NCBI RefSeq assembly: GCF_011297335.1
Contig: NZ_JAAOTJ010000018.1
Span: 1 to 64,000 of the forward strand
Source of the DNA: Catellatospora methionotrophica
GTDB taxonomy: Bacteria; Actinomycetota; Actinomycetes; Mycobacteriales; Micromonosporaceae
DNA: 64,000 nucleotides
Direction: 5' to 3'
The notes beneath the pieces are model-generated. The model saw only the letters and a program-made list of their open reading frames with translations. It searched no databases and was not told where the DNA came from. This document shows, one piece after another, positions 41,935 to 64,000 of the stretch (the stretch's first letter is position 1; every line of letters starts with the position of its first letter). Made by a program: the position numbers and the translations under genes.

Positions 41935-41992
41935 TGCACTCTCCGGGGGTGGGGCGCGCCCCGGCCGCGTGGGGGTGGGGCCGGGGCGCGGA

Positions 41993-42028: not shown

Positions 42029-42031
42029 CGT

Positions 42032-43081
42032 CTACTTGGCGCAGGTGAGGTACTTGCTGTCGAAGTCGGACTTGAGCGAGTCGGTCTTGGCCTGGCGGTC
42101 GGCGTCGTAGGTGGCGACGTTGGCCGTGGTGACCACGAACGAGCCGGAGTCGATGATGACACCGGGCGTGGCCATGGTGCAGCCCTCGGACAGCTTCACC
42201 AGCGCGTACGAACCGACGTAGGCCTGGCCGACCGGGTTCTGCAGCACGGTCGCGGCGACCTCGCCGGCCTTGATGCCCGCGATGATGGTCGGGTCGTCGT
42301 CGATGGCGATCACCTTGATCGGCAGCTTGGCCTGCTTGACGCCGCCCGCCGCGGCCACGGCCGGGTTGTAGGCGGTGGTGACGATCGCGTTGACCTGGCT
42401 GCCCTTGGCTGCCAGCAGGTCGGCGACGGCCTTCTGCGCGGTCTGCAGGTCCTTGTCGATGTCGGTGATGGTGTCCAGCAGCTTGACCTTGCCGCCGGTC
42501 TCGTCGACGGCTTTGCTCACTCCCGCGATGCGCCGCTGGGTGTTGGAGTCGACCTTGTTGCCGGTCAGGTGGACCAGGTTGCCCTGCCCGCCCATGGCCT
42601 CCACGGCCGCCTTGGCCGCCTTGTACGCCGCCTCCTGCACGTCGGTGGACAGGCAGAAGTCGGCCAGGTTCTTGTCACCGGCCGGGCAGGACGCCAGCGA
42701 GCCGACGTGGAAGCCCTGCTTCTTGAGGTTCTCGAAGGTGGAGTTGATGCTCTCCGGCGCGACGCCGAAGATGCCGAAGGCGTTGTAGCCCTGCGCGGCC
42801 AGCGAGGTGAGCACGTCGTTCTGCTTGGTCTGGTCCCAGCCCGCGGTCTCGTTGAAGGTGACGTCACCGAACGCGAAGTCGGTCTTGGCCTTGCCGCCGG
42901 CGTCCTTCCACGGCTGGAAGTACGGGTGCGCGCCGCCGGGGACCAGCGCCACCTTCACCTGGGCGGCGGTGAGCGCGCTCGCGCCGCCCGCCGGGGTCTC
43001 TTCCTTCTTGGTGCAGGCCGACGCCGCGATCACCAAAGCGAGCACGCCGACGGTGGAGCCCAGTCGAACAAACGGCCTCAT
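42032..43081 (-). CDS. CUT2 sugar-binding lipoprotein (periplasmic-binding-protein type 1)
   Basis: A 349-residue lipoprotein with a signal peptide and lipobox ASAC (Cys23). The mature part has the two alpha/beta lobes of the RbsB/LacI-like fold: VKVALVPGGAHPYFQPWKDA, then VKVIAIDDDPTIIAGIKAGEV in the second lobe. It opens the four-gene import operon. Ligand preference (ribose, xylose, galactose or another monosaccharide) cannot be read. Its promoter carries GAAATCCTATAGGATATTTC, also found before the GH95-like gene, which links this importer to the secreted enzymes. Confidence 0.93.
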   Translation of the reverse strand: MRPFVRLGSTVGVLALVIAASACTKKEETPAGGASALTAAQVKVALVPGGAHPYFQPWKDAGGKAKTDFAFGDVTFNETAGWDQTKQNDVLTSLAAQGYNAFGIFGVAPESINSTFENLKKQGFHVGSLASCPAGDKNLADFCLSTDVQEAAYKAAKAAVEAMGGQGNLVHLTGNKVDSNTQRRIAGVSKAVDETGGKVKLLDTITDIDKDLQTAQKAVADLLAAKGSQVNAIVTTAYNPAVAAAGGVKQAKLPIKVIAIDDDPTIIAGIKAGEVAATVLQNPVGQAYVGSYALVKLSEGCTMATPGVIIDSGSFVVTTANVATYDADRQAKTDSLKSDFDSKYLTCAK

Positions 43082-43118: not shown

Positions 43119-43138
43119 GAAATCCTATAGGATATTTC
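43119..43138. promoter_or_regulatory. Operator centred on ATCCTATAGGAT, copy 1
   Basis: GAAATCCTATAGGATATTTC lies 38 nt upstream of the CUT2 binding-protein start (minus strand). The core ATCCTATAGGAT (43122-43133) is a perfect 12-bp palindrome. Seventeen bases are identical to the second copy at 56703-56719. The TA-centred palindrome resembles sites of GntR (FCD type) or similar sugar regulators; no such regulator gene is adjacent. Confidence 0.75.
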
Positions 43139-47643: not shown

Positions 47644-47668
47644 GGGTTTCCTTCCGGGGGTGGGGGTG

Positions 47669-47702
47669 CCCCTCGGCGCGCGGGGGCTTGCGCGCCGAGG
47701 GG
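47669..47702. terminator. 12-bp hairpin after the ThuA-DUF1080 gene
   Basis: Arms 47669-47680 and 47691-47702 pair over 12 bp with a 10-nt loop, just after the ThuA-DUF1080 gene on the minus strand. It is probably a partial terminator within the enzyme run. Confidence 0.6.
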
Positions 47703-47720
47703 GTGGAGCGGGAACTTCCG

Positions 47721-49899: not shown

Positions 49900-52800
49900 T
49901 CAGGACCCGTAGACGTCGAACTCCCACAGCGAGTAGCCCCACTGGGTGGCCCGGGCCGTGCCGTTGATCCGCACGTAGCGGCCCGCGCCGGACACGGTCA
50001 GGTCGTCGACGCCGCCGTTGCCGGTGGTGGTGGACGAGACCGTGGTCCAGGTGCTGTTGTCGTTGGAGACCTGCACCTGGTAGGCCGTGGCGTACGCGGT
50101 CTCCCAGTTCAGGACCACGCGGCTGACGTTGCGGGTCTGGCCGAGGTCGACGGTGATCCACTGCGGGTCGGCGTAGAGGCTGCTCCACCGGGTGGTGGTG
50201 CTGCCGTCCACGACGTTGCCGGGCACGTTGGCCCCGGCCTCGGTGCTGGACGCCGTCACCGGCCGGTTGCGCGACAGCAGGGTCGCGCCGCTGGCCGGGG
50301 TCCCGTAGACGTTCAGGTCGAACAGCGAGTAGCCGTACTGGGTCAGGCCGCGCGCGGTGCCGTAGACGCGCACGTAGCGGCCGGTGCCGGTGACGTTGAC
50401 GTCGTCGATGCCGCCGTCGCCGGTGGCCGTCGAGAACACCGACGTCCACGCGCTGTTGTCCGGCGATACCTCGACCCGGTAGGCCTTGCCGTACGCGGCC
50501 TCCCAGTTGATCCGGACCCGGTTGACGTTGTACGACGCGCCCAGGTCCACGGTGATCCACTGCGGGTCGGCGTACAGGCTGCTCCAGCGGGTGGCGGCGT
50601 TGCCGTCGACCGCGTTGGCGGCCACGTTCGCACCCGCCTCCGTGCTGGACGCCGTCACCAGGCGGCCCTGCGCCAGGTCCTGGCCGCCGGTCGGCGGGGT
50701 GCTGCCGACGCCGCTGCCGACGAACGTGTAGCTGTCCACGTCGTACAGCGCGCCGGTGCCCGACCCGGTGAACACCAGGTACAGGTCGTGCGTGCCGTCG
50801 TCGGGCTTCGTCACCGGGGCGGTGACCTCGGTGTAGTTGTCCCAGCCGCCGGTGCCGGGCACGGTGACCCGGGCGACCTCGGGACCGGTGACCGAGTCGT
50901 ACCGGAAGGACAGCACGCCGCCCGCTCCGGCCGAGGAGACCCGCGCCTTGACGCTGGTGATGCCCTTCAGGCTGACGCCGTGGTGGCGTACGCTCTCGCC
51001 GTTCTGGATGTCGCCCAGCCGCTTGCCGCCCTCGGCGGCGGCCTGGTCGACCACCTTGGGACCGTTGAGGGTCACGTAGTGCTCGGCCTGCCACTGCTTG
51101 GGCCACAGGGTGAGCTGCTGCTCGCCGGTCAGCGGCACGGTGCCGGACGCGCCCCGGTCGGTGTAGCTGCCCCGGACGACGAAGAACTGCACCGCGTCGA
51201 GCCCGGCGTGGATCGGGCCGGTGTTGAAGGTGAAGCCGCAACCGGTGCCCTGGCCCTCCTCGTGCGCGTGTTCCTGGTGCCCGAGCGCGACCCGGACGAC
51301 GACGTTGCCGCAGGCGATGGTGCCGTCCTGGGCGTCGGTCGACGCGGCGGTCGCGGTGACGTCGTCGCCCCAGCCGTAGATGCCGCCGTTGGGGATCGAG
51401 CCGACGGTGGTCACCGGCCGGTTGTTGCCGACCACGATGGGGATCTGGACGCTGCCCGACCGGCCGGTGCCGTCGTTGACCGTCAGCCGGGCCCGCTTGT
51501 CGCCGACCGTCGTGTACGTGTACGACGGGTTCGCCGCCGTGGAGTCGGTGGTGCCGTTGCTGTCGAAGTCCCAGGCGTAGGTCAGCGGGTCGCCGTCGGG
51601 GTCGCTGCTGCCCGCGCTGGAGAAGGTCACCGCGAGCGGCGCGAGGCCGTTGTCGCGGTTGGCCGTGGCCACGGCGATCGGCGAGCGCCCGCCCGCCACG
51701 TAGTTGATTTTGTACAGGCCCGCCGCGGCGTCGCCGGAGAAGTAGCCGTTGCCGTATTCGAGCAGGTAGAGCGACCCGTCGGGGCCGAACTCCATGTCGA
51801 TCGGGTGCACCAGCTGCATGCCGGACACCACCGGCTCGATGACCGTCGGGTTGCCGGTGACCGGGTTGCCGTTGTCGAACTGGACCTCCTTGATCCAGTT
51901 GCGGCAGTACTCGGTGATGATCAGCTTGTTGTCGTAGTAGGCCGGCCACTTCACCGTGGAGTTCAGGTTCGGGTTGTAGTGGTAGACCTCGGCGTGGTTG
52001 GGCGAGCCGCAGCCGCCCGGGTTGTCCAGCGCGGGCCACTCGCGGCTGCCGCCGTGCTGCTCCCAGACCAGGGCGGGCTTGGTCGGCGGGAGCTGCTGCA
52101 GGCCGGTGTTGCGCGGGGAGTTGTTGACCGGGCCGGTGGCCCCGCCGCACGGGAACCAGCCGCGCGGGGCGTTGGCCGCGAAGTCCCAGTCGTTGTAGGC
52201 GACGTTCGGGCCGCCGCAGTAGGGCCAGCCGTAGTTGCCGGGGCCGGTGGCGCGGTTGTACTCGTCGTAGGCGGCCGGGCCCCGGTTGGCGACGGTCGCC
52301 CCGGCGTCCGGTCCGACCTCGCCCCAGTACAGGGTGTTGCCGGCCTGCTTGTCGACCCAGATCCGGTACGGGTTGCGGTTGCCCATGGTGTAGATCTCGG
52401 GCCGGGTGTTGGCCGTGCCCTGCGCGAACAGGTTCCCGGCCGGGATGGTGTACGTCCCGTTGCTCTCCGGGTGGATGCGGTTGATCTTCCCGCGCAGGTC
52501 GTTGGTGTTGCCCGAGGTGCGCTGGGCGTCGTACTGCGCGTCGCGCGAGGTGCGCTCGTCGATGGGGGCCATGCCCGCGGAGTCGCCGCCGGAGTTGGTG
52601 TTGTCACCCACCGCGAAGTACAGGTTGTTGTTGCTGTCCCAGGTCATCGAGCCCGCGGAATGGCAGCACAGCCGCCGCTCGGTCGGCCACTCGATGAGCT
52701 TGGTCTCGCTCGCCGCGTCCAGCACGTTGGTGGACGTGTTGAAGGTGAACCGGGAGATCCGGTTGACCAGCGGCGTGGCCACCGGGGAGTAGAACAGGTA

Positions 52801-53175
52801 CACCCAGCGGTTGCTGGTGAACTGCGGGTGCAGCGTGATGCCGATCAGGCCGTCCTCGAACCGGGCGTCGAGCTGCAGTGTCAGCGCCACGGTGGTGGAG
52901 TTGGTGGCCGGGTTGTAGAGCCGGACCTGACCGCCGCCGGAGCTGGTGCCCCGGTTGATGTAGAGGACCTTGCCGTCGGGCAGCACGGACAGCTCGATCG
53001 GCTCGCCCATGGACAGTCCGCCGTCCAGCTTCACCTTCTCGAAGCTGGAGGTGGCGGGCGGCGCGGCGGCGGCCGGCGCGGGGATCGCGACGACGTTGAC
53101 GACCGCGGCCGCCACGCTCGCGAGCATCATCAGGGCCAGGCCCGCGGCCAGGCGCGGGCGGGTACTTCGAGGCAT
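49900..53175 (-). CDS. Secreted PQQ-dependent sugar dehydrogenase with PKD, CBM6-like and two F5/8 type C modules
   Basis: A 1091-residue exported protein. A signal peptide (to about residue 38) precedes a propeller domain (about 45-490): ARFEDGLIGITLHPQFTSNRWVYLF, LCCHSAGSMTWDSNNNLYFAVGDN, NTRPEIYTMGNRNPYRIWVD, NYGWPYCGG. A PKD domain (about 500-580), an Ig-like region with HQEHAHEEG, a CBM6-like module (about 700-840) and two F5/8 type C domains follow. It is a paralogue of the dehydrogenase at 44815-47643, with a different C-terminal binding module. The ATG at 53175 (MPRSTRPRLAAG) gives a normal signal peptide. No PQQ synthesis genes are nearby, so the cofactor must come from elsewhere. 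Confidence 0.85.
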   Translation of the reverse strand: MPRSTRPRLAAGLALMMLASVAAAVVNVVAIPAPAAAAPPATSSFEKVKLDGGLSMGEPIELSVLPDGKVLYINRGTSSGGGQVRLYNPATNSTTVALTLQLDARFEDGLIGITLHPQFTSNRWVYLFYSPVATPLVNRISRFTFNTSTNVLDAASETKLIEWPTERRLCCHSAGSMTWDSNNNLYFAVGDNTNSGGDSAGMAPIDERTSRDAQYDAQRTSGNTNDLRGKINRIHPESNGTYTIPAGNLFAQGTANTRPEIYTMGNRNPYRIWVDKQAGNTLYWGEVGPDAGATVANRGPAAYDEYNRATGPGNYGWPYCGGPNVAYNDWDFAANAPRGWFPCGGATGPVNNSPRNTGLQQLPPTKPALVWEQHGGSREWPALDNPGGCGSPNHAEVYHYNPNLNSTVKWPAYYDNKLIITEYCRNWIKEVQFDNGNPVTGNPTVIEPVVSGMQLVHPIDMEFGPDGSLYLLEYGNGYFSGDAAAGLYKINYVAGGRSPIAVATANRDNGLAPLAVTFSSAGSSDPDGDPLTYAWDFDSNGTTDSTAANPSYTYTTVGDKRARLTVNDGTGRSGSVQIPIVVGNNRPVTTVGSIPNGGIYGWGDDVTATAASTDAQDGTIACGNVVVRVALGHQEHAHEEGQGTGCGFTFNTGPIHAGLDAVQFFVVRGSYTDRGASGTVPLTGEQQLTLWPKQWQAEHYVTLNGPKVVDQAAAEGGKRLGDIQNGESVRHHGVSLKGITSVKARVSSAGAGGVLSFRYDSVTGPEVARVTVPGTGGWDNYTEVTAPVTKPDDGTHDLYLVFTGSGTGALYDVDSYTFVGSGVGSTPPTGGQDLAQGRLVTASSTEAGANVAANAVDGNAATRWSSLYADPQWITVDLGASYNVNRVRINWEAAYGKAYRVEVSPDNSAWTSVFSTATGDGGIDDVNVTGTGRYVRVYGTARGLTQYGYSLFDLNVYGTPASGATLLSRNRPVTASSTEAGANVPGNVVDGSTTTRWSSLYADPQWITVDLGQTRNVSRVVLNWETAYATAYQVQVSNDNSTWTTVSSTTTGNGGVDDLTVSGAGRYVRINGTARATQWGYSLWEFDVYGS

Positions 53176-53499
53176 GGGTCGCTCCGGATCAGTGGGGGTC
53201 GGCTGGTGCGGGACGGGGACCGAAGGGGTGCGCGACCGTCCCGGCGACCGGCCACTGATCTGGCGCGGAGCACGGTGGATCTCGGCGATGGGTGCCATGA
53301 CGCGTTCCCTCGGGGTCGGGCGTCCGGGCGGTCCGTGACGTGCCGCCCGTGGAGGCGGAACGCCCGGTGCCGTCCGGGCCACCGGGTTCCCGCTGGGTGT
53401 GCGGGAACCCGGACGGTCGGCTCGGAGCCGGGTCGCCGAATGCTCGGCTCCGAAGTGGCGTATGCGCAGGGCCGGAGCTGGTCCGGCCCTGCGCGGGGC
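53176..53499. other. 324-base spacer with three tandem hairpins
   Basis: This spacer lies between the larger PQQ dehydrogenase (start 53175) and the GH95-like gene (end 53500), both minus strand. It contains three inverted repeats. The last is a perfect 13-bp stem (53464-53476 with 53482-53494) right after the GH95-like stop. Next is a 9-bp stem around 53418-53450, and then an 11-bp stem (53382-53392 with 53402-53412). No further gene is supported. Together they look like a strong terminator array followed by the dehydrogenase promoter. Confidence 0.6.
53464..53494. terminator. 13-bp perfect hairpin terminator after the GH95-like gene
   Basis: Arms 53464-53476 and 53482-53494 pair perfectly with a 5-nt loop, 5 nt beyond the stop of the GH95-like gene. 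Confidence 0.8.
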
Positions 53500-56400
53500 T
53501 CAGAGTGTGATCATTTCGAACTTCTCCCAGGGGCCGATGGACGCGCGGTTGGCGACGAGCGCCGCAGCGCCGCCGTTCTCGGCCACCACGTACTGGTTGT
53601 TGACGGTGGCGCGCAGGCTCACCGTGTTGTCGGCGTTGCGCACCAGGGCGAAGGTCTCCCAGGAGCCCGCTGAGGCCCGGTTGGCCAGCAGCGGGTTGGC
53701 TCCGGCGTTCTCCGCGCAGACGAACTGGCTGTTCGACCGGGCGCGCAGCGCGATGTTGCCGTTGCCGAGGTCGCTCACCTGGAACTGCTGCGCCGTGCCG
53801 ACCGTGGCCGCGTTGGCGATCAGGGCCGTGGTGGCGTTGGCCGCGGTGACGTACTGCCCGTTGGCCTGGGCTTTCAGGGCGACGTAGCCGGTGGCGGGTG
53901 GGGTGCCGCCGGTGGTGATGCGCAGCGCGTCCACGATCGCGACGGCCGTGGCCTTGTTGACGATCCGGATGGTGTGCTGCCCGTTGCTCAGCCCGGTCTT
54001 CGACCAGACGACCGCCTGCGCCTGCCGGGCGCCGGAGACGTACAGGTTGACGTTGGCCTGGAGCACGTTGTCCAGGTACACGTCGACGTTGCCCATGTCG
54101 CCGTTGCGCTCGGACAGGTACTCGATCCCGGTGCCGGTGAACGTGTACGAGGCCGCGGCGTTGACGGTGTTGGTGTGGTGGGTGTCGTCGTTGTAGTCGC
54201 CGTAGCCCCGGGCGGTGGTGTGGTACCAGCCCGCGTCGTAGGTCAGGTCGGTGTCGTTGACGAGCCCGCCGCCACCGCCGCCGCCGGGAGTGCCCAGGCC
54301 CAGCGTCGAAGCCGTGTTGAGCAGTGACTTCTGGGCGTTGTTGGCGGTGCCGGTCAGCGTGGTGGCGCTGTAGGTCGACAGCGGCTTCGCGGTGCGCTCG
54401 ACCACGTACACCGTGTTCGCGGCGGTGGCGAAGCTGACCTCGGCCGCCGAGGACGTGGTGATGATCGCGTTGTCGGACGTGCGGCGCACCTGGACCTGCT
54501 GGGTGCCCCACGGGTTGACGACGGTGGCGTTCTTGCCGAACTGGCTGCGCAGCCCGACGTACTTGACCTCACCGGCCTCGCGCTCCGAGCTGACCAGGAA
54601 GCCGTCCTTGGCCAGCAGGGTGAACTTGCCGACGAAGGAGGAGGCGGTGGGCGGCGCCGGGAACACCCTGATCTTGTCGTTGTAGCTCTGCAGCAGCGAC
54701 TCGTTCATGGCGACCAGGTGGATGCCCAGGTACTCGAACACCCCGTTGGTGTTGTTGGTCATGCCGTTGGGGTAGTTCTGGTAGCGCTGCAGCATGGTCC
54801 GCATGCCGTTGAACGCCTGGTCGCCCAGGCCCAGGCGGGCCGCCTGCGCGTGGTCGTTGGCCCACACGTTGGCGTACGGGTTGGGCCGCACGTTCCACGT
54901 GTTGACCGCGGTGTTGTAGTCGGAGAAGCCGATGCCGGTGCGGTCGTAGGGCCAGATCAGCTCGGCCGACACGTTCTCACCGTTGCGGACCTGCGACGAC
55001 GGCGGGTCGTGCGGCAGGTAGGCGTTGTTGCTCAGCTGGTACGGCCACAGGTTGTCGACCAGGTTCTGCCAGCCCGCGCGCAGCCCACTGTCCAGGCCGA
55101 GCTGCGTGCTGACCTGGATGGTCAGCGGGGCCAGCAGCCGCACCGCGGCCAGGTCGGTGATCGCGTTGCGCACGTCCCAGTAGGTCTCGTGGGCATTGCT
55201 GTTGACCATCTGGTACTTGCCGTTGATCAGCTGGAACCGGTTCTGGTAGAACCGCAGCGCGTCCTTCATGTACGGGTACACGGTGTTCTGCAGGTACGCG
55301 GTGTCGTTGGTGTACCGGTACTGCAGGTACATGTTGTACGCGACCTCGGTGCCGGTGGAGTAGATGTCGTTGACGTAGTCGCTGCCCACGGTGCCGCGGG
55401 CGTTGCCGTCCCAGCCCATCGTCTCGGGCACCCACAGCGAGTCGGTGCCGTACCTGGTCTGCGTGTACGCCTTGAGCGCGGTGTAGTTGCGGCTGTAGAG
55501 CCGGTTGAACACCGCCATCATGTCGGCGTGGTTGCTGGCCAGGAACGAGTTGTAGACGTCGCGCTGGTTCCAGTACCAGTAGCCGTTGCTCCACTTGGTC
55601 TGGTCGCCGGTGGCCCGGAACACGCCGTTGATGAAGTGCACCGGGTAGTTGCCGTACCCGCCCGCCGCGATCATGTACGTGGACAGGTAGTACACGTTCT
55701 CCAGGTAGTCGGCGTCGCCGGCGGCGTTCGAGTACTGCACGAACGACCTGCCCCAGAAGCTGTGCCACCAGTTCTTGTAGTTCGTGAACGTGGTGTTGTA
55801 TCCCGTCGACTTGGCCGAGGCGAGCTGGTTCTTGGCTTGCGCGACCGAGTCCAGGCCGGGCGAGTTGATTCGGCTGGCCGCGGTGAACCAGATGGTGTAA
55901 CTCGACGACGGCGTGATCGACAGCCGCACCCGGGTGCCGTTGACCACCGAGGCGCTGTAGGACGCGCCCTCGACGGTCGCGGCGAAGGTGTAGCCGAAGT
56001 TGTTCGGGTCGGCCTGGCCGCGGCTGAACCAGGCTGCCGACGAGTCGCTGCCGGTGGACACGGTGCGCCAGGTCGTCAGGTTGGGCACGTCGGCGCTGTT
56101 GGAGACCCCGTTCGGGTCCCACAGGCTCAGCTCCAGCGTCGCGGCCGACACCCCGCCACGGGTGTCGTCGACGTGGATGCCCATCACCTCGGAGTTGGGC
56201 GCACCCATGATCGTGACGGTGCGGTTGCTGTCGTACTTCGTGCTCAGCGTGCCGTCGTACAGCGACAGTCGCTGGGAGAAGGTGCTCGACCCGGCGTCCA
56301 GCGCGGGGCTGGTGTTGAAGTTGAGCTGGCCGGCCGCGAACGCCGACTGCTGCGACAGGTCGACGCCGGAGACCTGCGCGGTGATGCCGTTCTGGGACCA

Positions 56401-56643
56401 GACCATGGCCCCGGTGCGGCCGTTGCCGACGGTGAGCCCGTGCAGCGGGTTGGTGTTCTGGCGGTGGTAGACGAGGTCGTGCTTGGACAGGTAGCCGGCG
56501 TAGTTGACGTTGAGGGCGCCGGTGGCGGAGTTGAACGCGGCATCGGTCGGCGATGCCAGGGCGGGCGCGGCGGGGACGGCAGCGCCCAGGCCTGCGGCGA
56601 CGACCGCCGCCAGGGCCAGGCGTAACGACTTGCTGAGGTTCAT
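53500..56643 (-). CDS. Secreted GH95-like (alpha/alpha-barrel) glycoside hydrolase with galactose-binding-like and beta-trefoil modules
   Basis: A 1047-residue exported protein. A signal peptide (LALAAVVAAGLGAAVPAAPALA) precedes a beta-sandwich (about 50-290) that opens NTNPLHGLTVGNGRTGAMVW, as in GH95 and related clan enzymes. An alpha/alpha barrel follows (about 300-660) with YWYWNQRDVYNSF, GWDGNARGTVG and NAHETYWDVRNAITDLAAVRLL. Then come a Gly-rich linker, a galactose-binding-like domain (about 815-925) and a beta-trefoil (about 930-1047). GH95 includes alpha-L-fucosidases and alpha-L-galactosidases; the exact activity is not certain and related barrels are possible. The shared TATCCTATAGGATA element lies about 64 nt upstream of the start. 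Confidence 0.75.
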   Translation of the reverse strand: MNLSKSLRLALAAVVAAGLGAAVPAAPALASPTDAAFNSATGALNVNYAGYLSKHDLVYHRQNTNPLHGLTVGNGRTGAMVWSQNGITAQVSGVDLSQQSAFAAGQLNFNTSPALDAGSSTFSQRLSLYDGTLSTKYDSNRTVTIMGAPNSEVMGIHVDDTRGGVSAATLELSLWDPNGVSNSADVPNLTTWRTVSTGSDSSAAWFSRGQADPNNFGYTFAATVEGASYSASVVNGTRVRLSITPSSSYTIWFTAASRINSPGLDSVAQAKNQLASAKSTGYNTTFTNYKNWWHSFWGRSFVQYSNAAGDADYLENVYYLSTYMIAAGGYGNYPVHFINGVFRATGDQTKWSNGYWYWNQRDVYNSFLASNHADMMAVFNRLYSRNYTALKAYTQTRYGTDSLWVPETMGWDGNARGTVGSDYVNDIYSTGTEVAYNMYLQYRYTNDTAYLQNTVYPYMKDALRFYQNRFQLINGKYQMVNSNAHETYWDVRNAITDLAAVRLLAPLTIQVSTQLGLDSGLRAGWQNLVDNLWPYQLSNNAYLPHDPPSSQVRNGENVSAELIWPYDRTGIGFSDYNTAVNTWNVRPNPYANVWANDHAQAARLGLGDQAFNGMRTMLQRYQNYPNGMTNNTNGVFEYLGIHLVAMNESLLQSYNDKIRVFPAPPTASSFVGKFTLLAKDGFLVSSEREAGEVKYVGLRSQFGKNATVVNPWGTQQVQVRRTSDNAIITTSSAAEVSFATAANTVYVVERTAKPLSTYSATTLTGTANNAQKSLLNTASTLGLGTPGGGGGGGLVNDTDLTYDAGWYHTTARGYGDYNDDTHHTNTVNAAASYTFTGTGIEYLSERNGDMGNVDVYLDNVLQANVNLYVSGARQAQAVVWSKTGLSNGQHTIRIVNKATAVAIVDALRITTGGTPPATGYVALKAQANGQYVTAANATTALIANAATVGTAQQFQVSDLGNGNIALRARSNSQFVCAENAGANPLLANRASAGSWETFALVRNADNTVSLRATVNNQYVVAENGGAAALVANRASIGPWEKFEMITL
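53503..53886. repeat. Fascin-like beta-trefoil module, copy C
   Basis: Third copy, C-terminal in the GH95-like enzyme. It shares ATTALIANAATVGT and VAENGGAAALVANRASIGPW-type segments with the other two. Confidence 0.7.
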
Positions 56644-56859
56644 GGGGGAAAACCTCCGCGAAAAAGGGGGGCAGATTTCCGGCGTGTTACCGGACCGTGT
56701 ATGAAATATCCTATAGGATAGATGAAGATCAGGTTAAGACATGTCGCTACTTGTATCGAAATTGGTGACCTCAGTGGAAATGTGAGCGATCCTGTTGTCT
56801 TGCACCGACTCTGGGCCGCCCGACCCGGTCACCGCAGCGCCTACGTCACCCGCGTCACC
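56644..56859. other. Spacer between the GH95-like gene and the ebo-type operon
   Basis: This 216-base gap holds the promoter and operator of the GH95-like gene and the 3' end of the polyprenyl synthetase unit. It is AT-richer from about 56700 to 56770. No gene is supported. Confidence 0.5.
56703..56720. promoter_or_regulatory. Operator centred on ATCCTATAGGAT, copy 2
   Basis: TATCCTATAGGATA (56707-56720) is a perfect 14-bp palindrome about 64 nt upstream of the GH95-like start. GAAATATCCTATAGGAT (56703-56719) is identical, on the opposite strand, to the copy before the CUT2 transporter operon. This implies co-regulation by one sugar-responsive repressor. Confidence 0.75.
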
Positions 56860-57942
56860 TCACACCGATCTGCTCGCCACGAAGTCGGCCAGCGCCCCCA
56901 GCGCCTGCCGCGACTCCTCCGCCACCTCCAGGAACTCCAGCGCCCGCAGCGACTCGGCGCGGGCCGCCTCGATCCGCTCCTCCACCGCCGCCAGCGCCCC
57001 CGACTCGGCCATCACGGCGCGTACCTGGGCAGCGCCCGCCTCGTCCAGACCCGCGTCGCCCACGTGTGCCGACAGCACCGCACGCGAACGCACATCCCCC
57101 CGCGCGAACGCCTCCGCCAGCAGCGTCGTCGGTTTGGCCTGGCGCAGGTCGTCCAGCACCGACTTGCCCGTGCGCGCCGGGTCGCCGAACACCCCGAGCA
57201 CGTCGTCGCGCAGCTGGAACGCCTCGCCCAGCGGCTCCCCGAACGCCGCCAGCCCGTCCAGCACCGCGTCCGACGCCCCGGCCAGCACGGCGCCGATCTG
57301 CAGCGGCCGCACCACCGAGTACCGGGCCGTCTTCAGCTGCATCACCCGCGCCGCGCGCTGGCGCGCCCCGGACCCGAAGTCGCCCATGGCCTGCGCGACG
57401 ACCTCCAGGTACTCCCCCGCCACGGCCTCGGCCCGCATCACCGCGAACAGCCGCTGCGCCTGCGCCAGCCGCACGGGCGTGGCCGGGCACCCGGCCAGCA
57501 GCTCCTCGGCCCACATGGCGCACAGGTCCCCGCACAGCAGCGCGGTGTTGCGCCCGAACGAGCGCGCGTCACCGCGCCAGCCGTGCGCGGCGTGCGCGGC
57601 GGCGAACTCCTCGTGCATCGAAGGCTGCCCCCGGCGGCGGCTGCCCGCGTCGATGATGTCGTCGTGGATCAGCGCGAAGCAGTGGAACAGCTCCAGCGCC
57701 GCCCCGGCCGTCACGGCGGCCTGGTCCTCGCCCCGCTCCTCAGGCGCGGCCACCCCGCGCCAGCCCCAGTAGCAGAATGCCGGCCGCAGCCGCTTGCCCC
57801 CGGTGAGGATGAACCGCCGCACCGTGTCCAGCATCGGCCGCAGATCATCGTCGGGCCACAGCAGCCGCTGCCCGTCCACGAACCCGGCCAGCACGGCGTC
57901 GATCCTGGCCGCCAACGGCGTAGGCGCGGGCGCGACCGTCAC
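56860..57942 (-). CDS. Polyprenyl synthetase (trans-isoprenyl diphosphate synthase)
   Basis: A 360-residue cytosolic enzyme that chains isopentenyl diphosphate onto an allylic primer. The first Asp-rich motif is DDIID (residues 94-98) with the Arg pair two residues on (GSRRRGQPS); the second is RDDVLGVFGD. FARM-type residues before the first motif (LELFHCFALIHDD) suggest a medium chain, with length not fixed. It is the last gene of the ebo-type operon and overlaps the EboF-like gene by 4 nt (GTGA). It may supply the prenyl chain used by the UbiA enzyme. The GTG at 57942 gives a family-typical start. Confidence 0.92.
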   Translation of the reverse strand: MTVAPAPTPLAARIDAVLAGFVDGQRLLWPDDDLRPMLDTVRRFILTGGKRLRPAFCYWGWRGVAAPEERGEDQAAVTAGAALELFHCFALIHDDIIDAGSRRRGQPSMHEEFAAAHAAHGWRGDARSFGRNTALLCGDLCAMWAEELLAGCPATPVRLAQAQRLFAVMRAEAVAGEYLEVVAQAMGDFGSGARQRAARVMQLKTARYSVVRPLQIGAVLAGASDAVLDGLAAFGEPLGEAFQLRDDVLGVFGDPARTGKSVLDDLRQAKPTTLLAEAFARGDVRSRAVLSAHVGDAGLDEAGAAQVRAVMAESGALAAVEERIEAARAESLRALEFLEVAEESRQALGALADFVASRSV

Positions 57943-59312
57943 GGCGCACCACCCGCCAAACGCAGGAGCAGGGACTTGACGTCGGTGGCGAGGATCCGGT
58001 CGACGGCGGGGTCGGGGTCGGTGCACAGCAGGACCGGGGCGTCGTCGGCACCGGGCGGGAGCAGGCCGTGCGAGCCGCGGATCGCGTCCGCGCCCGCGTC
58101 CAGGCCGACCACGTTCATGCGGTATCGCATGCCGAGCTTCTTGCGCACCAGCGCCTTGGCCGCACGGCCCTTCGCCGCCCCCGGCCCGGCCGGGTCGAAC
58201 AGCAGCTCAGCGGGGTCGTAGCCGGGCTTGCGGTGGATCTCCACGTGGGTGGCGAAGTCCGGCGCGCGGGCGTCGTCGAGCCAGTAGTAGTAGGTGAACC
58301 AGGAGTCCGGCTCGGCCAGCAGCACCAACTCACCGCTGCGCGCGTGGTCCAGGCCCTGGCCCGCCTTGCCGGACTCGTCGAGCACCTGCCCGACGCCGGG
58401 CAGCTCGGCGCACAGCTTCGCGACCGCGGCGACGTCGGCCGGGTCGCGCACGTACACGTGCGCGATCTGGTGGTCGGCGACCGCGAAGGCACGGGAGGTG
58501 TACGGATCCAGGTACTCCATGCCGTCCTGGGTGTGCACGGTGAGCAGCCCGGCGGCCCGCAGTGCCCGGTTGACGTGCACGGGGCGGGACACGTCGGTGA
58601 TGCCGTACTCCGACAGCACGACCACGGTAGCCCCGCGGGCGGCGGCCGCGTCGAGCAGCGGGCCCAGCGTCGCGTCCAGCTCGGCGGCGGCCGCGGCGGC
58701 CTGCGGGGCGGACGGGCCGAAGCGCTGCAGGTCGTAGTCGAGGTGCGGGACGTATACCAGGGTCAGGTCCGGGTCGCGGGTCGCCATGACGTGCACGGCC
58801 GCCGCGGCGATCCAGGCCGACGACGCGATGCCCGCGCCCGGCCCCCAGTAGCTGAACAGCGGGAACGTCGGCAGTTCGTCGTGCAGCTCGGGCGGGACCG
58901 TGTAGCAGTCGGGCTCCTTGCGGCCGTCCGCGCGGTAGATCGGCCGGGGCGTGATCGTCCAGTCGACGTCCGCGCCCATGGCGTACCACCAGCAGATGTT
59001 GGCCACGGTGTAACCGGGCCGCTCGCGGCGCAGCGCGTCCCAGACCCGCTCGCCCTCGACCAGCGCGTGGCTCTGCCGCCACAGCAGCACCTCGCCGAGG
59101 TCACGGAAGTACCAGCCGTTGCCGACGATCCCGTGCCCGGCCGGGGCCTCACCGGTGAGGAACGTGGCCTGCACCGAGCAGGTGACGGCGGGCACGACCG
59201 GGTCGAGCCGGGCGGTGAACCCGCCGGAGAACGCGGCCCGCAGCCGCGGCATGTGCGCCAGCAGCCGGGGCGTCAGCCCGACGACGTTCAGCACGACGAG
59301 TGGTTTGTTCAC
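57939..59312 (-). CDS. eboF: EboF-like alkaline phosphatase/nucleotide pyrophosphatase-family protein
   Basis: A 457-residue protein of the alkaline phosphatase superfamily. It opens VVLNVVGLTPRLLAHMPRL and has the active-site region PVVPAVTCSVQATFLTGEAPAGHGIVGNGWYFRDLGEVLLWRQ. Further metal-site segments are 'DLTLVYVPHLDYDLQRFGP' and 'VVVLSEYGITDV'. These match the EboF group of ebo clusters. It may remove phosphate or nucleotide groups from a traffic substrate. The GTG at 59312 overlaps the EboE-like stop, and its own stop overlaps the polyprenyl synthetase start. Confidence 0.88.
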   Translation of the reverse strand: MNKPLVVLNVVGLTPRLLAHMPRLRAAFSGGFTARLDPVVPAVTCSVQATFLTGEAPAGHGIVGNGWYFRDLGEVLLWRQSHALVEGERVWDALRRERPGYTVANICWWYAMGADVDWTITPRPIYRADGRKEPDCYTVPPELHDELPTFPLFSYWGPGAGIASSAWIAAAAVHVMATRDPDLTLVYVPHLDYDLQRFGPSAPQAAAAAAELDATLGPLLDAAAARGATVVVLSEYGITDVSRPVHVNRALRAAGLLTVHTQDGMEYLDPYTSRAFAVADHQIAHVYVRDPADVAAVAKLCAELPGVGQVLDESGKAGQGLDHARSGELVLLAEPDSWFTYYYWLDDARAPDFATHVEIHRKPGYDPAELLFDPAGPGAAKGRAAKALVRKKLGMRYRMNVVGLDAGADAIRGSHGLLPPGADDAPVLLCTDPDPAVDRILATDVKSLLLRLAGGAP

Positions 59313-60427
59313 GAGACCCCCAGGGCGGCGAACTGGTCGCGGGCGAAGGCCAGCTCGGCGGCGATGCCCTCGGCCAGCCCGGCGTCGTCGGTGGGACGGG
59401 CCGAGGCAGGCAGCACGTCCCAGGTGTACGTCTCGACCTCGAAGTGGTCGCAGTCGCTGTTGGTGAGCAGCGCCGCCAGCCCTTCGCGCAGCACGGTGGA
59501 GCTGGTGCGCAGCGGGTCGAGCGCGGCGGCGTGCAGCGGCGCGTGGAAGTGGATGCGCCACGGGCCGGGCGCGTCGGAGGCCAGGGCCTGCGGCAGGTCG
59601 TCGAAGCGCTCCCCGGCCGAGCTGCGGGTCTGGTGCAGGAAACGCGGCTCGGCGTACGCCGCCAGCACCTGCCGGGCCGCCACCGGGTCCTCGACCTCCA
59701 GCGCCTGCGACACCTGCACCTTGACCACGGACACCCCGGCCGCCTTGAGCTTGGCGACCGCGTCGACCGGGTCCTCCCAGCCGCAGGCCAGGTGCGCCAG
59801 GTCGACGCAGACGCCCAGGTGCTCGCTGGCCACCGCGGACAGCGCAGCGACGGCCTGGTCGGTGGACTCGACCACGCAGCCGGGTTCGGGCTCCAGCGCG
59901 ACCCGGATCGGCCGCTCGCCCCGGGCCAGGCCCGCGGCCAGCTCGTCGAGCTGCGCCTTGGCGGCCCGGAACCGGCGGCGGTCCCACGGCTCGCGCCAGG
60001 CCAGCGGCAGCGTCGAGATCGAGCCGCGCGCGGCGTCGTCGGGCAGCAGCTCCGCCAGCACCAGCGCCAGATCCAGGGTGTAGCGCAGGCGGCGCGGGTC
60101 GGTCCAGTCGGGCAGGTACACGTCGTGCTTGACCACCGGGGCCTGGAACGCCTGGTACGGGAAGCCGTTGAGGGTCACCGTCTCCAGCCCGCGCGCGGTC
60201 AGCTCGCGGCGCAGTTTCGCGCGCAGCTCCGGCTGCTCGGCCAGGGCGCGGGCGACCGGGGCGGCCAGCCACAGGCCCAGGCCCAGCACGTCGACGCCGA
60301 GCCGTTCGCGCACCGGCACCGCGAAGCGGTCCAGCTGCGACAGCACCCCGTCGAAGTCCTCCGCGGCGTGCACGTTCGTGCAGTACGCCAGGTGCACCGT
60401 CGCACCGTCGGCGTCGCGCAGCCGCAT
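59309..60427 (-). CDS. eboE: EboE-like TIM-barrel protein
   Basis: A 372-residue protein of the sugar-phosphate isomerase/epimerase superfamily. It begins 'HLAYCTNVHAAEDFDGVLSQL', and carries 'LNGFPYQAFQAPVVKHDVYLPDW', 'VALEPEPGCVVE' and 'GVCVDLAHLACGWEDP' with candidate metal ligands, all consistent with metabolite-traffic protein EboE. The true reaction is not known. The ATG at 60427 overlaps the TatD-family stop (TGATG), and its end overlaps the EboF-like GTG by 4 nt. Confidence 0.88.
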   Translation of the reverse strand: MRLRDADGATVHLAYCTNVHAAEDFDGVLSQLDRFAVPVRERLGVDVLGLGLWLAAPVARALAEQPELRAKLRRELTARGLETVTLNGFPYQAFQAPVVKHDVYLPDWTDPRRLRYTLDLALVLAELLPDDAARGSISTLPLAWREPWDRRRFRAAKAQLDELAAGLARGERPIRVALEPEPGCVVESTDQAVAALSAVASEHLGVCVDLAHLACGWEDPVDAVAKLKAAGVSVVKVQVSQALEVEDPVAARQVLAAYAEPRFLHQTRSSAGERFDDLPQALASDAPGPWRIHFHAPLHAAALDPLRTSSTVLREGLAALLTNSDCDHFEVETYTWDVLPASARPTDDAGLAEGIAAELAFARDQFAALGVS

Positions 60428-61275
60428 CACGAACCCCCGCGCAGGATCGAGTTGCCCGCGAAGGTGGCCGCGGTGTCGGCCTCGTCGAGGTCGAGGCGGC
60501 CGGACTGGCCGTAGAACGCGACCGGGTTGCGCCACAGCACCCGGTCGACGTCGTCGTCGCTGAAACCGGCCGCCAGCATCGCCTCACCCGTGCGCAGCGT
60601 GAGCAGCGGATCGGACTTGCCCCAGTCGGCGGCGGAGTTGACCAGCATCCGCTCCAGGCCGTACTCGCGCAGGATGGCGACCATCCGGTCCGGCGACATC
60701 TTCGTGTCGGGGTAGATGGAGAAGCCCATCCAGCAGCCCGAACCGGCGACCTCCGCGACCGTCGGCTCGTTCAGGTGGTCCAGCACGACCAGACCGGGGT
60801 CGATGCCGGACTCCTTGACCACGTCGAGGCTGCGCCGGGTGCCGACGACCTTGTCCCGGTGCGGGGTGTGCACCAGCGCGGGGAGCCCGTGCTCGCGGGC
60901 CAGCTCCAGATGCGCCGCGAACACCTCGTCCTCCTCGGGCGTCATCGAGTCGTACCCGGTCTCGCCGACCGCCACGACCCGGTCCTTGTCCAGGTAGCGC
61001 GGCAGCAGGGCCAGCACCTCGCGGCAGCGCGGGTCGTTGGCCTCCTTCGGGTTCAGCGCGATGGTGCAGTGGTGCGCGATCCCGTACTGGCTGGCCCGGA
61101 AAGGCTCCCACCCGATGAGCGCGTCGAAGTAGTCGGTGAACGAGCCGGTGTTGGTGCGCGGCTGGCCGAGCCAGAAAGCCGGCTCGACCAGCGCTCGCAC
61201 CCCGGCCGCCGCCATCCGCTCATAGTCGTCGGTGGTGCGCGAGGTCATGTGGATGTGCGGATCGAAGATGCGCAT
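60427..61275 (-). CDS. eboB: TatD-family hydrolase (EboB-like)
   Basis: A 282-residue metal-dependent hydrolase. The HxH motif is DPHIHM (residues 5-10). Further ligands are Glu in VVAVGETGYDSM, His in 'ALVHTPHRDKV' and 'LVVLDHLNE', and Asp in VNSAADWGKSDP, as in TatD nucleases. The ebo version is EboB; its substrate is unknown. The ATG at 61275 overlaps the upstream stop (TGATG), and its stop overlaps the EboE-like start. Confidence 0.9.
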   Translation of the reverse strand: MRIFDPHIHMTSRTTDDYERMAAAGVRALVEPAFWLGQPRTNTGSFTDYFDALIGWEPFRASQYGIAHHCTIALNPKEANDPRCREVLALLPRYLDKDRVVAVGETGYDSMTPEEDEVFAAHLELAREHGLPALVHTPHRDKVVGTRRSLDVVKESGIDPGLVVLDHLNEPTVAEVAGSGCWMGFSIYPDTKMSPDRMVAILREYGLERMLVNSAADWGKSDPLLTLRTGEAMLAAGFSDDDVDRVLWRNPVAFYGQSGRLDLDEADTAATFAGNSILRGGS

Positions 61276-62579
61276 CAATGCAGCCTCTCCAGAAGGTCGA
61301 CGGCGTCGTCGGGCATGGTGCGGCCGGCCGCCTCGCGCTCGCGGCGCAGCGCCGCGAGCATCCGGCCCAGCTCGGCGTCGGCCCGCTGCGGGAGTCCGTC
61401 GACGCCGGACAGCGGCAGGCCCATGAACACGCTCTTGAGCACGCCCTGGCGCCATTCGGCGTCGGGCAGGTCCCGGGCGGCGGGGCCGAGCGCGGCGGCC
61501 ACCAGCCGGGTGTCGTTGCTGCGCAACGCGTCGCGGACCAGGTCCGGTTGCGGGCAGGCCAGCAGCACGGCCCGCTTCTCCTCGTTGTCGCCGTAGCGGT
61601 ACAGCTCCGCGGCCTCGTCCGGGCTCAGGGTGACCGCGCCGAGCAGGCGCACCCGGACGTCCTCGGCGGCGGCCCGGCCGACCTTGCGGCGGGCCGCGCT
61701 CAGCAGCGTCGCGAGCGCCGCGGGCTCGCGTTCGAGCTGGTCGAGCGCGTCGCCGAGCCACTGCGCGGCGCGCAGGAAGGTCAGCGAGCGGGCGGCGACG
61801 TCGGGTGCGGCGTGGGAGTGCCGGGGCAGCTCGACGGCGACCAGGCCGCGGTAGCCGGTCTCGGCCAGCGCCCGCAGCACCGGCGGGAAGTCGATCTCGC
61901 CTTCGCCGAACTCCAGGTGCTCGTGCACGCCCCGGCGCATGTCGTCGATCTGGACGTTGACCAGGTGCGGTCCGGCGATCCGGACGCTCTCGGCGACACC
62001 CTGCGGCTCGTTGGCACGGCAGTGCCCGATGTCGAGGGTCAGTTTGAGGTCGGCCCCGACCAGGTCGCGCAGCCGCGCCCAGTCGGCCAGCGTCTCGACG
62101 AGCATGCCGGGCTCGGGCTCGAAGCCCGCCGCGACCCCGCGCTCGGCGGCGTAGGCAACGACCTCGGCGCAGCCCTCGGCCAGCAGCTGCCAGGCGACCT
62201 CGGCGGACACGTGCGCCGGACGCACCCCGGCCCAGAACGACACCGCCTCGGCGCCCAGCCCGGCGGCGATGTCGATCGCGCGTTTGAGGAAGTCGATCCG
62301 GCGCTCGGCGTCGTCGTGCAGGAACGTCGGCGCGTGCTTGCGCCGCGGGTCGAGCAGGTAACGCGCCCCGGTCTCCACGACCACGCCCAGCTCACGCTCG
62401 GCGAGCAGCCGCGCGGTCCGCGCGACCTGGTCTTTCACATCGGTGGCGTACGGGTCCAGGTGCGCGTGGTCGAGCGTCAGCGCGACGCCCGCGTAGCCCA
62501 CCTCGGCGATGACGTCGAGCGCGTCGGCCAGCCGGTGGTTGGCGAATCCGTTGGTGCCGTAGCCGAAGCGCAGGCTCAT
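61275..62579 (-). CDS. Fusion of a sugar-phosphate isomerase-like TIM barrel with an EboA domain
   Basis: A 434-residue protein. Residues 1-270 form a xylose isomerase-like TIM barrel (SLRFGYGTNGFANHRLADALDVIAEVGYAGVALTLDHAHL, then 'GFEPEPGMLVETLADW', 'LKLTLDIGHCRANEPQG'). Residues about 300-434 match EboA: RYGDNEEKRAVLLACPQPD, 'ALRSNDTRLVAAALGPAARD', WRQGVLKSVFMGLPLSGVDGL and MLAALRREREAAGR. In the described ebo operons EboA is usually a separate protein, so this is a fused form. It overlaps the UbiA gene by 4 nt and the TatD-family gene by 1 nt. Confidence 0.88.
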   Translation of the reverse strand: MSLRFGYGTNGFANHRLADALDVIAEVGYAGVALTLDHAHLDPYATDVKDQVARTARLLAERELGVVVETGARYLLDPRRKHAPTFLHDDAERRIDFLKRAIDIAAGLGAEAVSFWAGVRPAHVSAEVAWQLLAEGCAEVVAYAAERGVAAGFEPEPGMLVETLADWARLRDLVGADLKLTLDIGHCRANEPQGVAESVRIAGPHLVNVQIDDMRRGVHEHLEFGEGEIDFPPVLRALAETGYRGLVAVELPRHSHAAPDVAARSLTFLRAAQWLGDALDQLEREPAALATLLSAARRKVGRAAAEDVRVRLLGAVTLSPDEAAELYRYGDNEEKRAVLLACPQPDLVRDALRSNDTRLVAAALGPAARDLPDAEWRQGVLKSVFMGLPLSGVDGLPQRADAELGRMLAALRREREAAGRTMPDDAVDLLERLH

Positions 62580-63418
62580 GTCGCTGACACCTTCCTCGCG
62601 AGCTTGGCTGCGGCCGGGGCGGCGGTCGCAACCACGGCTCCGACCAGCGGTTTCCCGTCCCGTGCGATGAGTGCGCCCTGCAGCGCGGGCAGCGAGGTGA
62701 TGCCCGCCCCGACCGCGGCGCGCACCCGTGCCGCGTCGGGGTGGCGCAGCACCTCGCGCTGGGCCTTGCCGAAGCGGGTGGCGTACCAGCCCGCCAGCAC
62801 CGCGGGCAGCCAGCCGCCGCCCCGGCCCGCCGCGTGCGTGGCCACGGCGGCGGTCGCGGTCATGGTCAGCGCGGGCAGCACCCGGTCGGTCCCGCTGACC
62901 TCGCGCCGCGACAGCGCGGTCACCGCGTAGGTGTGCGCCGCGACGGCCAGCGCCGGGCGGGCGGCCTTGCGCAGGTCACCGGTGCTCGCGCCGAGCAGCA
63001 CGTCCAGTCCCCGGCACAGCGCCATCCCGGCGGGCCCGGCCGGGGAGTTCTTCCACTTGATGTCGTACGCCCACACCGCCCCGGCGAGCAGGCCCGCAGT
63101 GGCCAGGGTCTTCTTGCCGCCACTGGCTGCGGCCAGGGCCAGCCCGGCGACGGTGAGGCCGCCCGCGATGGCCAGCGCGGTGTCGGGGCTGATCCGCCCG
63201 GACGGGATGGGCCGCTCGGGCCGCTCGACGGCGTCGAGTTCCCGGTCGGCCCAGTCGTTGGCGGCCATGCCGCCCCAGTACAGGCACACCGAGGCGGCGG
63301 CGATCCCGGCCGTGCGCGCGTCGAGAGTGCCTGCCGCGGTGGCGCCGGCGACGGCGTCGCCGGGCACCGACAGCGCGGCCGGTGCCCGGACCAGCTGCGC
63401 CAGGTCACGCAGCCTCAT
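62576..63418 (-). CDS. eboC: UbiA-family prenyltransferase (EboC-like)
   Basis: A 280-residue membrane protein with about eight helices. The first Asp-rich motif NDWADRELD (Asn54, Asp55, Asp58, Asp62) followed by VERPERPIPSGRIS is the UbiA signature for binding the prenyl diphosphate. The second motif is less clear around YDIKWKNSPAGPAGM. In ebo clusters EboC prenylates an unknown acceptor. The polyprenyl synthetase five genes downstream could supply its donor. The ATG at 63418 overlaps the inositol-phosphate synthase stop (ATGA). Confidence 0.9.
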   Translation of the reverse strand: MRLRDLAQLVRAPAALSVPGDAVAGATAAGTLDARTAGIAAASVCLYWGGMAANDWADRELDAVERPERPIPSGRISPDTALAIAGGLTVAGLALAAASGGKKTLATAGLLAGAVWAYDIKWKNSPAGPAGMALCRGLDVLLGASTGDLRKAARPALAVAAHTYAVTALSRREVSGTDRVLPALTMTATAAVATHAAGRGGGWLPAVLAGWYATRFGKAQREVLRHPDAARVRAAVGAGITSLPALQGALIARDGKPLVGAVVATAAPAAAKLARKVSAT

Positions 63419-64000
63419 GACGGGTCTCCGCCGGGTTCGGCCCGGCGGGTGTCCGGGCCGTGCTGCTCGCCCGAGCCAACCGGCACGGCCCACCCCTGTA
63501 CCCACTCGCACAGGTCGCGCCACTGCTCGGCCAGGCCGTGCGGCACGTCGCCGATCGGGTCCTTGAAGAAGAAGGCCAGCTGCGGCAGCGGCCCGGACAG
63601 GCCCTGGGCGTGGGCGGCGGCGGTGAGCCGGGCCAGGTCCAGGACCAGCGGGGCGGCCAGTGCGGAGTCGCAGCCGTGCCAGGTGAACTCCAGCCGCATC
63701 CGGCTGCCCAGGAAGCCGCTGAACGTGATCAGGTCCCAGGCCGTCTTCAGGTCGCCGATGTCGGGCACGTAGTCGATGCGGGTGTGCCCCTCGGGCTCGT
63801 AGCCCAGCGTCTCCCGCAGCACCCGCTGCTTGCTGGCGACCTTGGCCGCGTTGGCCTCCGGCCGGGCCAGCGTCGCGCCGTCGCCGCCGCCGAGCAGGTT
63901 CGTGCCCGACCAGGACCGGACCTGCAGGTTGCGCATCGCGAACATCGGCGCGAGCACCGACTTGAGCAGGGTCTCGCCGGTCTTGCCGTCGCTGCCCGCG
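63415..64000 (-). CDS. myo-Inositol-1(3)-phosphate synthase (partial, 5' end outside window)
   Basis: The C-terminal about 194 residues of an NAD-dependent sugar-phosphate cyclase. 'GSDGKTGETLLKSVLAPMF' is the hallmark active-site loop, followed by RNLQVRSWSGTNLLGGGDGATL and a Lys (AAKVASKQRVLRETLGY), all typical of inositol-phosphate synthases, which turn glucose 6-phosphate into myo-inositol phosphate. The start lies right of base 64000. It overlaps the UbiA gene by 4 nt and so belongs to the ebo-type operon, where it could supply a phosphoinositol acceptor or head group. It may not be the housekeeping copy. Confidence 0.88.
   Translation of the reverse strand, partial: AGSDGKTGETLLKSVLAPMFAMRNLQVRSWSGTNLLGGGDGATLARPEANAAKVASKQRVLRETLGYEPEGHTRIDYVPDIGDLKTAWDLITFSGFLGSRMRLEFTWHGCDSALAAPLVLDLARLTAAAHAQGLSGPLPQLAFFFKDPIGDVPHGLAEQWRDLCEWVQGWAVPVGSGEQHGPDTRRAEPGGDPS

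Follow-up and report, generated by a model that had tools for sequence, protein, structure and literature searches.

The DNA analyzed here, called the window, comprises positions 1 to 64,000 of contig NZ_JAAOTJ010000018.1 (C10) of Catellatospora methionotrophica (Micromonosporaceae, Actinomycetota; genome G000). It raises the question of what an ebo-type operon that carries its own inositol-phosphate synthase gene might make. Analysis of the locus revealed seven minus-strand genes running from 64614 to 56860, with successive overlaps of 4, 4, 1, 1, 4, and 4 nt. The first, ino1, starts 614 bases past the window end; its sequence was completed with the adjoining stretch of the contig (L007), which is identical to the window over their shared part. 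It encodes an Ino1-like inositol-phosphate synthase of 399 amino acids (64614 to 63415; window part, 63415 to 64000) with the domains PF07994 and PF01658. It is followed by the genes for EboC, a UbiA-type prenyltransferase of the SCO3242 family (62576 to 63418; 280 amino acids); a fusion of a TIM barrel to EboA (61275 to 62579; 434 amino acids; PF01261 at residues 22 to 271 and the EboA domain NF035938 at residues 307 to 429); EboB, a TatD-like hydrolase (60427 to 61275; 282 amino acids; PF01026); EboE, a xylose-isomerase-like TIM barrel (59309 to 60427; 372 amino acids); EboF, a phosphodiesterase/phosphatase-type hydrolase (57939 to 59312; 457 amino acids; PF01663); and a polyprenyl synthetase (56860 to 57942; 360 amino acids; PF00348).

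The original prediction for this region had described seven genes overlapping by 1 to 4 nt and had assigned them to the ebo type, and both statements were borne out. The EboE equivalog NF035939 was matched with 406.2 bits (cutoff, 250) and the EboA domain NF035938 with 119 bits (cutoff, 50). Homologs of EboB and EboF are both present by Pfam family, and profiles seeded from the window proteins matched 72 (EboB) and 77 (EboF) of 80 ebo loci of other phyla. The EboC equivalog NF035940 stayed below its cutoff (132.2 versus 250 bits), and the SCO3242 family NF045897 was matched instead (357.8 bits; cutoff, 260). The six-gene form of the operon includes the sugar-phosphate cyclase EboD, and no PF01761 match was found beside ebo in the window genome. 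Since ebo operons without eboD have already been described (PMC5133447 and PMC6282210; these and the other papers cited here are drawn on for parts of their text), the window operon was filed as a variant with the five-gene core and not as the six-gene form. These results indicate that it is an actinobacterial variant of the ebo operon.

The distribution of Ino1 and EboD was determined by profile searches of 170 ebo loci. The phylum set of 30 consisted of 29 fetched loci and L007; L068, with a weak EboE match and no other ebo gene, was dropped. The family set was 60 of 100 listed places over the cutoff, namely the copies of the window's genus and otherwise the higher-scoring places. The 80 loci from other phyla were the best of 580 ranked by likeness to the EboE of an EboD-type operon, with the phylum judged from record titles. 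Counts are profile matches over set thresholds, with profiles built from the window proteins and their relatives; the seed of the EboD profile was the single actinobacterial locus that has a 3-dehydroquinate (DHQ)-synthase-type gene. "Near" means inside the fetched stretch, mostly about 10 kb on either side, and the EboC or TIM reading frames that are split in L043, L045, L048, L054, L055, and L067 were used unmended. Of 396 genomes of the phylum, 27 matched the EboE profile (26 above its cutoff); they belong to 10 of 246 genera. The EboC profile NF045897 exceeded its cutoff in 88 of 150 genomes of the family.

The survey revealed Ino1 in 26, EboD in 1, and neither in 3 of the 30 phylum loci, and Ino1 in 59, EboD in none, and neither in 1 of the 60 family loci. 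The 80 loci of other phyla contained no Ino1; 75 had EboD and 5 had neither gene, and in one of these five (L136) the contig breaks off within EboD. None of the 170 loci contained both. Where Ino1 and EboC were both present, they lay on the same strand (26/26 phylum and 59/59 family loci), with a spacing of at most 300 bp in 22 phylum and 54 family loci. The extra TIM barrel accompanies Ino1, with matches in 26/30 phylum, 60/60 family, and 0/80 other-phyla loci. Whole-genome searches of 27 genomes placed PF01761 beside ebo in just one, G301, whose single Ino1 lies on another contig, and among the first actinobacterial loci the EboD profile had no match other than the ebo locus of that genome, L047. 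An Ino1 gene was also found in 2 of 8 genomes with an EboD-type operon, in neither case among the ebo genes of the fetched loci, so the exclusion holds per operon and not per genome. These results indicate that Ino1 takes the place of EboD in actinobacterial ebo operons. They also amend the original prediction, in which Ino1 was an added gene: it stands where EboD does elsewhere. The counts for Ino1, and within the family those for the polyprenyl synthetase given below, support the prediction that the two genes are not random neighbors.

L047 was the sole actinobacterial locus found with EboD, and its EboC carries the letters of the canonical type. Its EboF gene is followed by a gene of the flavin mononucleotide-dependent dehydrogenase family, for which isopentenyl diphosphate isomerase type 2 would be only a guess. 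Ino1-type operons in Chloroflexota were also considered and rejected, with NF045897 over its cutoff in 0 of 251 genomes. Four lower-scoring places fetched from that phylum, two of which were scanned for neighbors, comprised one usual EboD operon and three partial ebo sets (L253, L254, and L255); neither EboD nor Ino1 was found near the latter, one of which lies on a contig of just 3.6 kb.

The window Ino1 matches PF07994 with 164 bits and PF01658 with 108 bits, both over the cutoff, and falls far below the model for mycothiol-type actinobacterial INO1 (TIGR03450, 30.3 bits; cutoff, 638). Its closest solved structure is 1u1i (E value, 2.3e-70), which we take to be Ino1 of Archaeoglobus; the likeness is at the level of sequence. 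Eight positions of 1u1i, D225, N255, D261, K274, K278, K306, D332, and K367, are presumably catalytic, as point-mutant structure entries also suggest, and the matching residues are kept in 85 of 85 cluster copies. The cluster Ino1 thus looks able to work: it is divergent, with all of the catalytic positions tested intact. In a tree of 52 rows, 22 chosen cluster-type copies formed one group (support, 96/92), separate both from their closest relatives outside ebo and from the housekeeping copies (100/100); the program warned of long branches meeting at the join of cluster and other copies. At least two Ino1 matches were present in 25 of 27 ebo genomes, and in G237 the cluster copy was the sole one found. 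Two further loci, L099 and L101, carry an Ino1-like gene with a TIM-barrel gene (adjacent in L099 and about 5 kb off in L101), and profiles found no further ebo gene there.

Comparison of EboC from 85 actinobacterial and 71 canonical operons revealed a common stretch, NDxxDxxxDxxERPxRxxPSG. Within it, the residues of the Mg-diphosphate motif NDxxDxxxD (Asn54, Asp55, Asp58, and Asp62) are invariant in both types, and no second DxxxD motif stands out in the conserved columns. Four other positions separate the types: position 14 is A in 85/85 actinobacterial versus N in 69/71 canonical copies, position 139 is D in 83/85 versus N in 67/71, position 162 is H in 84/85 versus Y or F in 71/71, and position 247 is Q in 84/85 versus D or N in 71/71. 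The EboC of L047, actinobacterial and from an EboD-type operon, has N, V, F, and D at these positions. Position 139 lies three residues past Arg136, which by its spacing in a Maribacter copy matches R145 of Ubi-297, a residue proposed to bind the acceptor (PMC9235831). The type differences would fit a changed acceptor.

The polyprenyl synthetase, by contrast with Ino1, belongs to a narrower lineage. Of the 60 family loci, 42 have it, against 5 of the 30 phylum loci; of these five, three belong to the window's own family and one has the gene on the other strand. Wherever a family locus has both genes (41 loci), the synthetase gene comes after EboF, on its strand and no more than 300 bp away. 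Outside the family it was near ebo in two phylum loci, upstream of Ino1 on the same strand in L039 and on the opposite strand in L066. It is a lineage-level addition to ebo (the original prediction had called it added), and the TIM barrel, here fused to EboA, is likewise an addition. That it is a fixed part of all actinobacterial ebo operons was considered and rejected on the same counts. The top-scoring solved structures were a farnesyl diphosphate (FPP) synthase (8f8f) and a geranylgeranyl diphosphate (GGPP) synthase (3lk5), and 36 of 45 copies have ALIHDDI(M/L/I)D at the DDxxD region; a C15 to C20 product is therefore likely.

All 11 genomes of the genus, including the window's, carry at least two EboC copies over the NF045897 cutoff. 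In the ten relatives searched, all 21 fetched EboC copies sit in an ebo operon, both operons are retained, and the polyprenyl synthetase is present in 10 of 10 copies of the window-type operon. The second operon of the window genome (L058, G000:C9:146200-158015) has Ino1 and a fused TIM-EboA; its contig stops 147 bp past the EboF match, so that a polyprenyl synthetase there is not judgeable. Two loci elsewhere, L067 (G244) and L220 (G414), are apparently decayed or reduced.

Fusion of the TIM barrel to EboA was found in the window's genus (L007, L058, and 21/21 further loci) and, elsewhere in its order, in L065. The fusion as a general trait was rejected, the two being separate genes in the remaining loci with both. 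A predicted model of TIM-EboA had a predicted local distance difference test score (pLDDT) of 96.5, and the best fold matches of its TIM part in the PDB were ketose 3-epimerases. The TIM part matched the IolE inosose dehydratase model weakly (30.9 bits, far below the cutoff of 290), and an IolE structure was second best in a sequence search of solved structures. A fold-based function for EboA was rejected: the helical model is confident (pLDDT, 96.0), and its best PDB match reached just an E value of 0.84. EboB, EboE, EboF, and the TIM barrel have many invariant Asp, Glu, and His residues. NCBIfam labels the EboA-family and EboE proteins "metabolite traffic protein."

The operon lies amid genes for sugar metabolism. 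On the minus strand are a GH95/DUF5703-like glycosidase with a lectin-like C terminus (53500 to 56643; a weak assignment, the GH95 catalytic model scoring 28.5 bits against a cutoff of 27), a protein with a glucose/sorbosone dehydrogenase (GSDH) domain, PKD, CBM6, and two F5/8 C domains (49900 to 53382), a protein with ThuA, 3-keto-disaccharide hydrolase, and F5/8 C domains (47721 to 49835), and a second GSDH-PKD-CBM6 gene (44815 to 48414; start uncertain, the listed reading frame overlapping the ThuA gene). A sugar ABC importer comprising an ATPase, two permeases, and a binding protein follows (38373 to 43081, minus strand). A further ThuA gene is located divergently upstream of the operon (L007:13031-14200). 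From their domain make-up, the sugar enzymes beside the operon appear to be secreted. GSDH, ThuA, or 3-keto-disaccharide hydrolase genes flank 19/30 phylum, 39/60 family, and 6/80 other-phyla loci (the last count from a single run). ThuA matches number 0 to 13 per genome across 27 ebo genomes, so that ThuA near ebo by chance is unlikely. Three Bacteroidota ebo loci, L147, L153, and L173 (Arenibacter, Allomuricauda, and Flagellimonas), have adjoining ThuA and GSDH genes.

The 8.39-Mb assembly has four copies of a palindrome, TCCTATAGGA, three of them at the ebo locus; base composition predicts about one site per genome (by hand arithmetic), and a reversed control had no site. The three proposed operators lie 66 bp upstream of the GH95-like gene start (56709 to 56718), upstream of the sugar importer genes (43123 to 43132), and, outside the window, 171 bp upstream of ino1 (C10:64785-64794). 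The fourth site (C5:64824-64833, in L257, G000:C5:56000-74000) is closely upstream of lactate-utilization genes and also of a divergent, enolase-type dehydratase-like gene, measured to the part of it that is conserved; nearby are a dehydrogenase of the SDR family, an L-fuconolactonase-like gene (198 bits; cutoff, 400), and, at L257:4010-4732, a GntR/FCD regulator. In the genus, the site directly past the polyprenyl synthetase is present in 10 of 10 copies of the window-type operon, and the site upstream of ino1 is exact in 7 of 10, with one or two mismatches in the other three; the sites are conserved while their flanks are less so. No exact site was found in the 11 second operons of the genus relatives or in L058, and among the other fetched loci one, L150 (a Pedobacter record), has a site. 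The palindrome is probably the operator of a sugar regulon, and from the site pattern the window copy of ebo very probably belongs to a deoxysugar or glycan regulon. Judged by gene names, L-fucose would be our guess for the sugar. What is new here is an operon amid putative secreted sugar enzymes and a sugar importer, with a palindrome repeated three times at the locus.

Several known systems bear on the function. The eboABCDEF operon of eustigmatophyte plastids, Cyanobacteria, Bacteroidota, and others shares EboB, EboC, EboE, EboF, and the EboA domain with the window operon, which differs in having Ino1 instead of EboD, an extra TIM barrel fused to EboA, and an added polyprenyl synthetase (PMC5133447). 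The isoprenoid-cyclitol hypothesis for ebo has been in print since 2016, and TIM-EboA hybrids in Actinobacteria were noted in the same paper, whose main text contains no occurrence of the word "inositol" (PMC5133447). Actinobacterial ebo clusters, from Saccharomonospora, have been shown beside Ubi-297 (PMC9235831); in a comparison by publication and not by genome, "inositol" had no occurrence there. In the calcium-dependent antibiotic (CDA) region of Streptomyces coelicolor, SCO3242 is described as a putative transferase and SCO3243 as a myo-inositol phosphate synthase (PMC3610822). The window EboC falls in the NCBIfam family named for the former, and the name of the latter matches Ino1; compared by description, the window operon differs in its flanking sugar genes. 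The five-gene ebo cluster of Nostoc punctiforme consists of five homologous genes, with eboD outside the cluster proper. Its function was examined by deletion, which suggests that a precursor is moved into the periplasm (PMC6282210), whereas the window operon is known from its sequence alone. The BE-40644 pathway of Actinoplanes likewise pairs a cyclitol maker with a UbiA-superfamily prenyltransferase, but it uses EEVS rather than Ino1, and its UbiA enzyme is described as distinct from EboC (PMC5133447); no EEVS-type cyclase of the DHQ-synthase superfamily was found in the window cluster. Literature searches linking ebo or cyclase terms with "inositol phosphate synthase" found none, though other wordings or papers may differ, and none was found that combined three of ThuA, UbiA, "sorbosone dehydrogenase," and inositol.

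Because Ino1 and EboD, different ring-sugar makers, swap beside the same prenyltransferase, these data favor the 2016 isoprenoid-cyclitol proposal and extend it to an operon that itself encodes a ring maker and, in the window's family, a prenyl maker too. A prenylated cyclitol would be the simplest product; the phosphoinositol-like carrier of the original prediction would further require that the acceptor retain its phosphate and that the product act as a carrier. Ino1 would convert glucose 6-phosphate to an inositol phosphate; the cyclitol made by EboD elsewhere would be another one, with sedoheptulose 7-phosphate as a possible precursor. The TIM barrel and EboE may isomerize or dehydrate the ring, the polyprenyl synthetase would supply a C15 to C20 diphosphate, EboC would join the prenyl chain to the ring in the membrane, and EboF and EboB could hydrolyze off phosphate or other groups. 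The lipid-tailed cyclitol may then serve a membrane or envelope step needed during certain exported pathways, such as scytonemin maturation in Nostoc and extracellular sugar oxidation and hydrolysis here; the palindrome common to the operon and the sugar genes is consistent with the latter. We lean, by a modest degree, toward this reading, in which Ino1 and the epimerase-like TIM barrel supply a cyclitol that EboC prenylates for an envelope step.

Several observations weigh against it. Replacement may mean a different product, since the EboD ring is C7 without phosphate and the Ino1 ring is C6 with phosphate. Four actinobacterial loci are without a complete Ino1: L040, whose genome holds a second ebo operon with Ino1 (L043); L045, with a fragment (96 bits) and a full cluster-type Ino1 elsewhere in the genome (L100); L067, of decayed appearance; and L220, which also lacks EboA, EboB, and EboF. 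The 80 canonical loci are biased to the EboD type by the EboE used for ranking. None of the 11 second-operon copies in the ten genus relatives has the polyprenyl synthetase. Phylogeny by itself may explain the EboC differences: in three Chloroflexota relatives with the top NF045897 scores, the letters are canonical wherever the four positions can be read, so the pattern could stem from shared descent. Finally, Ubi-297, a relative of canonical EboC, farnesylated quinoline acids in vitro; it took 6 of 14 aromatic acceptors and no phenols or catechols, and the parts of the paper drawn on mention no cyclitol (PMC9235831).

The aromatic acceptors of Ubi-297 lead to an alternative in which the ring is aromatized before prenylation. 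The product would be a prenylated phenol or quinol, a meroterpenoid, with its carbon ring from Ino1 and the dehydrations performed by the TIM barrels. The faint likeness of the TIM part to IolE would suit such a route, as would the BE-40644 pathway, in which a cyclitol is dehydrated and farnesylated by a UbiA-superfamily enzyme (PMC5133447). However, the TIM fold is closest to 3-epimerases, and no ring-aromatizing oxidase family was matched by any of the seven proteins. We consider an aromatic product unlikely. Slightly less probable in our view is that no prenylated cyclitol is made, Ino1 and the TIM barrel giving a free cyclitol or sugar while EboC and the other Ebo proteins form a membrane traffic machine, as proposed for Nostoc. 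The scytonemin monomer stays intracellular in Nostoc ebo mutants (PMC6282210), the NCBIfam names speak of traffic, and the locus is tied to putative secreted sugar enzymes; yet EboC keeps its Mg-diphosphate motif, the operon has gained a prenyl-chain maker, and the invariant Asp, Glu, and His residues of EboB, EboE, EboF, and the TIM barrel are many. It is very improbable that Ino1, an inositol-phosphate synthase by sequence and the only one found in G237, merely boosts the inositol supply (e.g., for mycothiol or phosphatidylinositol) independently of EboC, and this, like a chance neighborhood, was dropped on the genome counts, the tree, and the locus survey, in which the cluster Ino1 is a distinct group, tied to EboC and never found with EboD.

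A bolder extension of the prenylated-cyclitol reading links it to the flanking genes. The product might be a redox lipid derived from inositol and carrying a prenyl tail, in effect a quinol built from sugar, that accepts electrons from the adjacent, putatively secreted GSDH-type sugar dehydrogenases. Pyrroloquinoline quinone (PQQ) is the usual cofactor of this enzyme family. PqqC was found in just 4 of 28 ebo-bearing genomes, so most of these cells probably lack PQQ synthesis. We regard this redox role as a long shot.

The exchange of Ino1 for EboD provides independent evidence that the EboD product is a cyclitol. The substrate and product of Ino1 enzymes are well known, so the Ino1 variant would be an easier biochemical handle on an operon that occurs across many phyla and also in algal plastids. 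The shared proposed operator predicts the conditions that turn the operon on in Catellatospora, so lipids from cells given the inducing sugar and from cells denied it could be compared in a search for the product.

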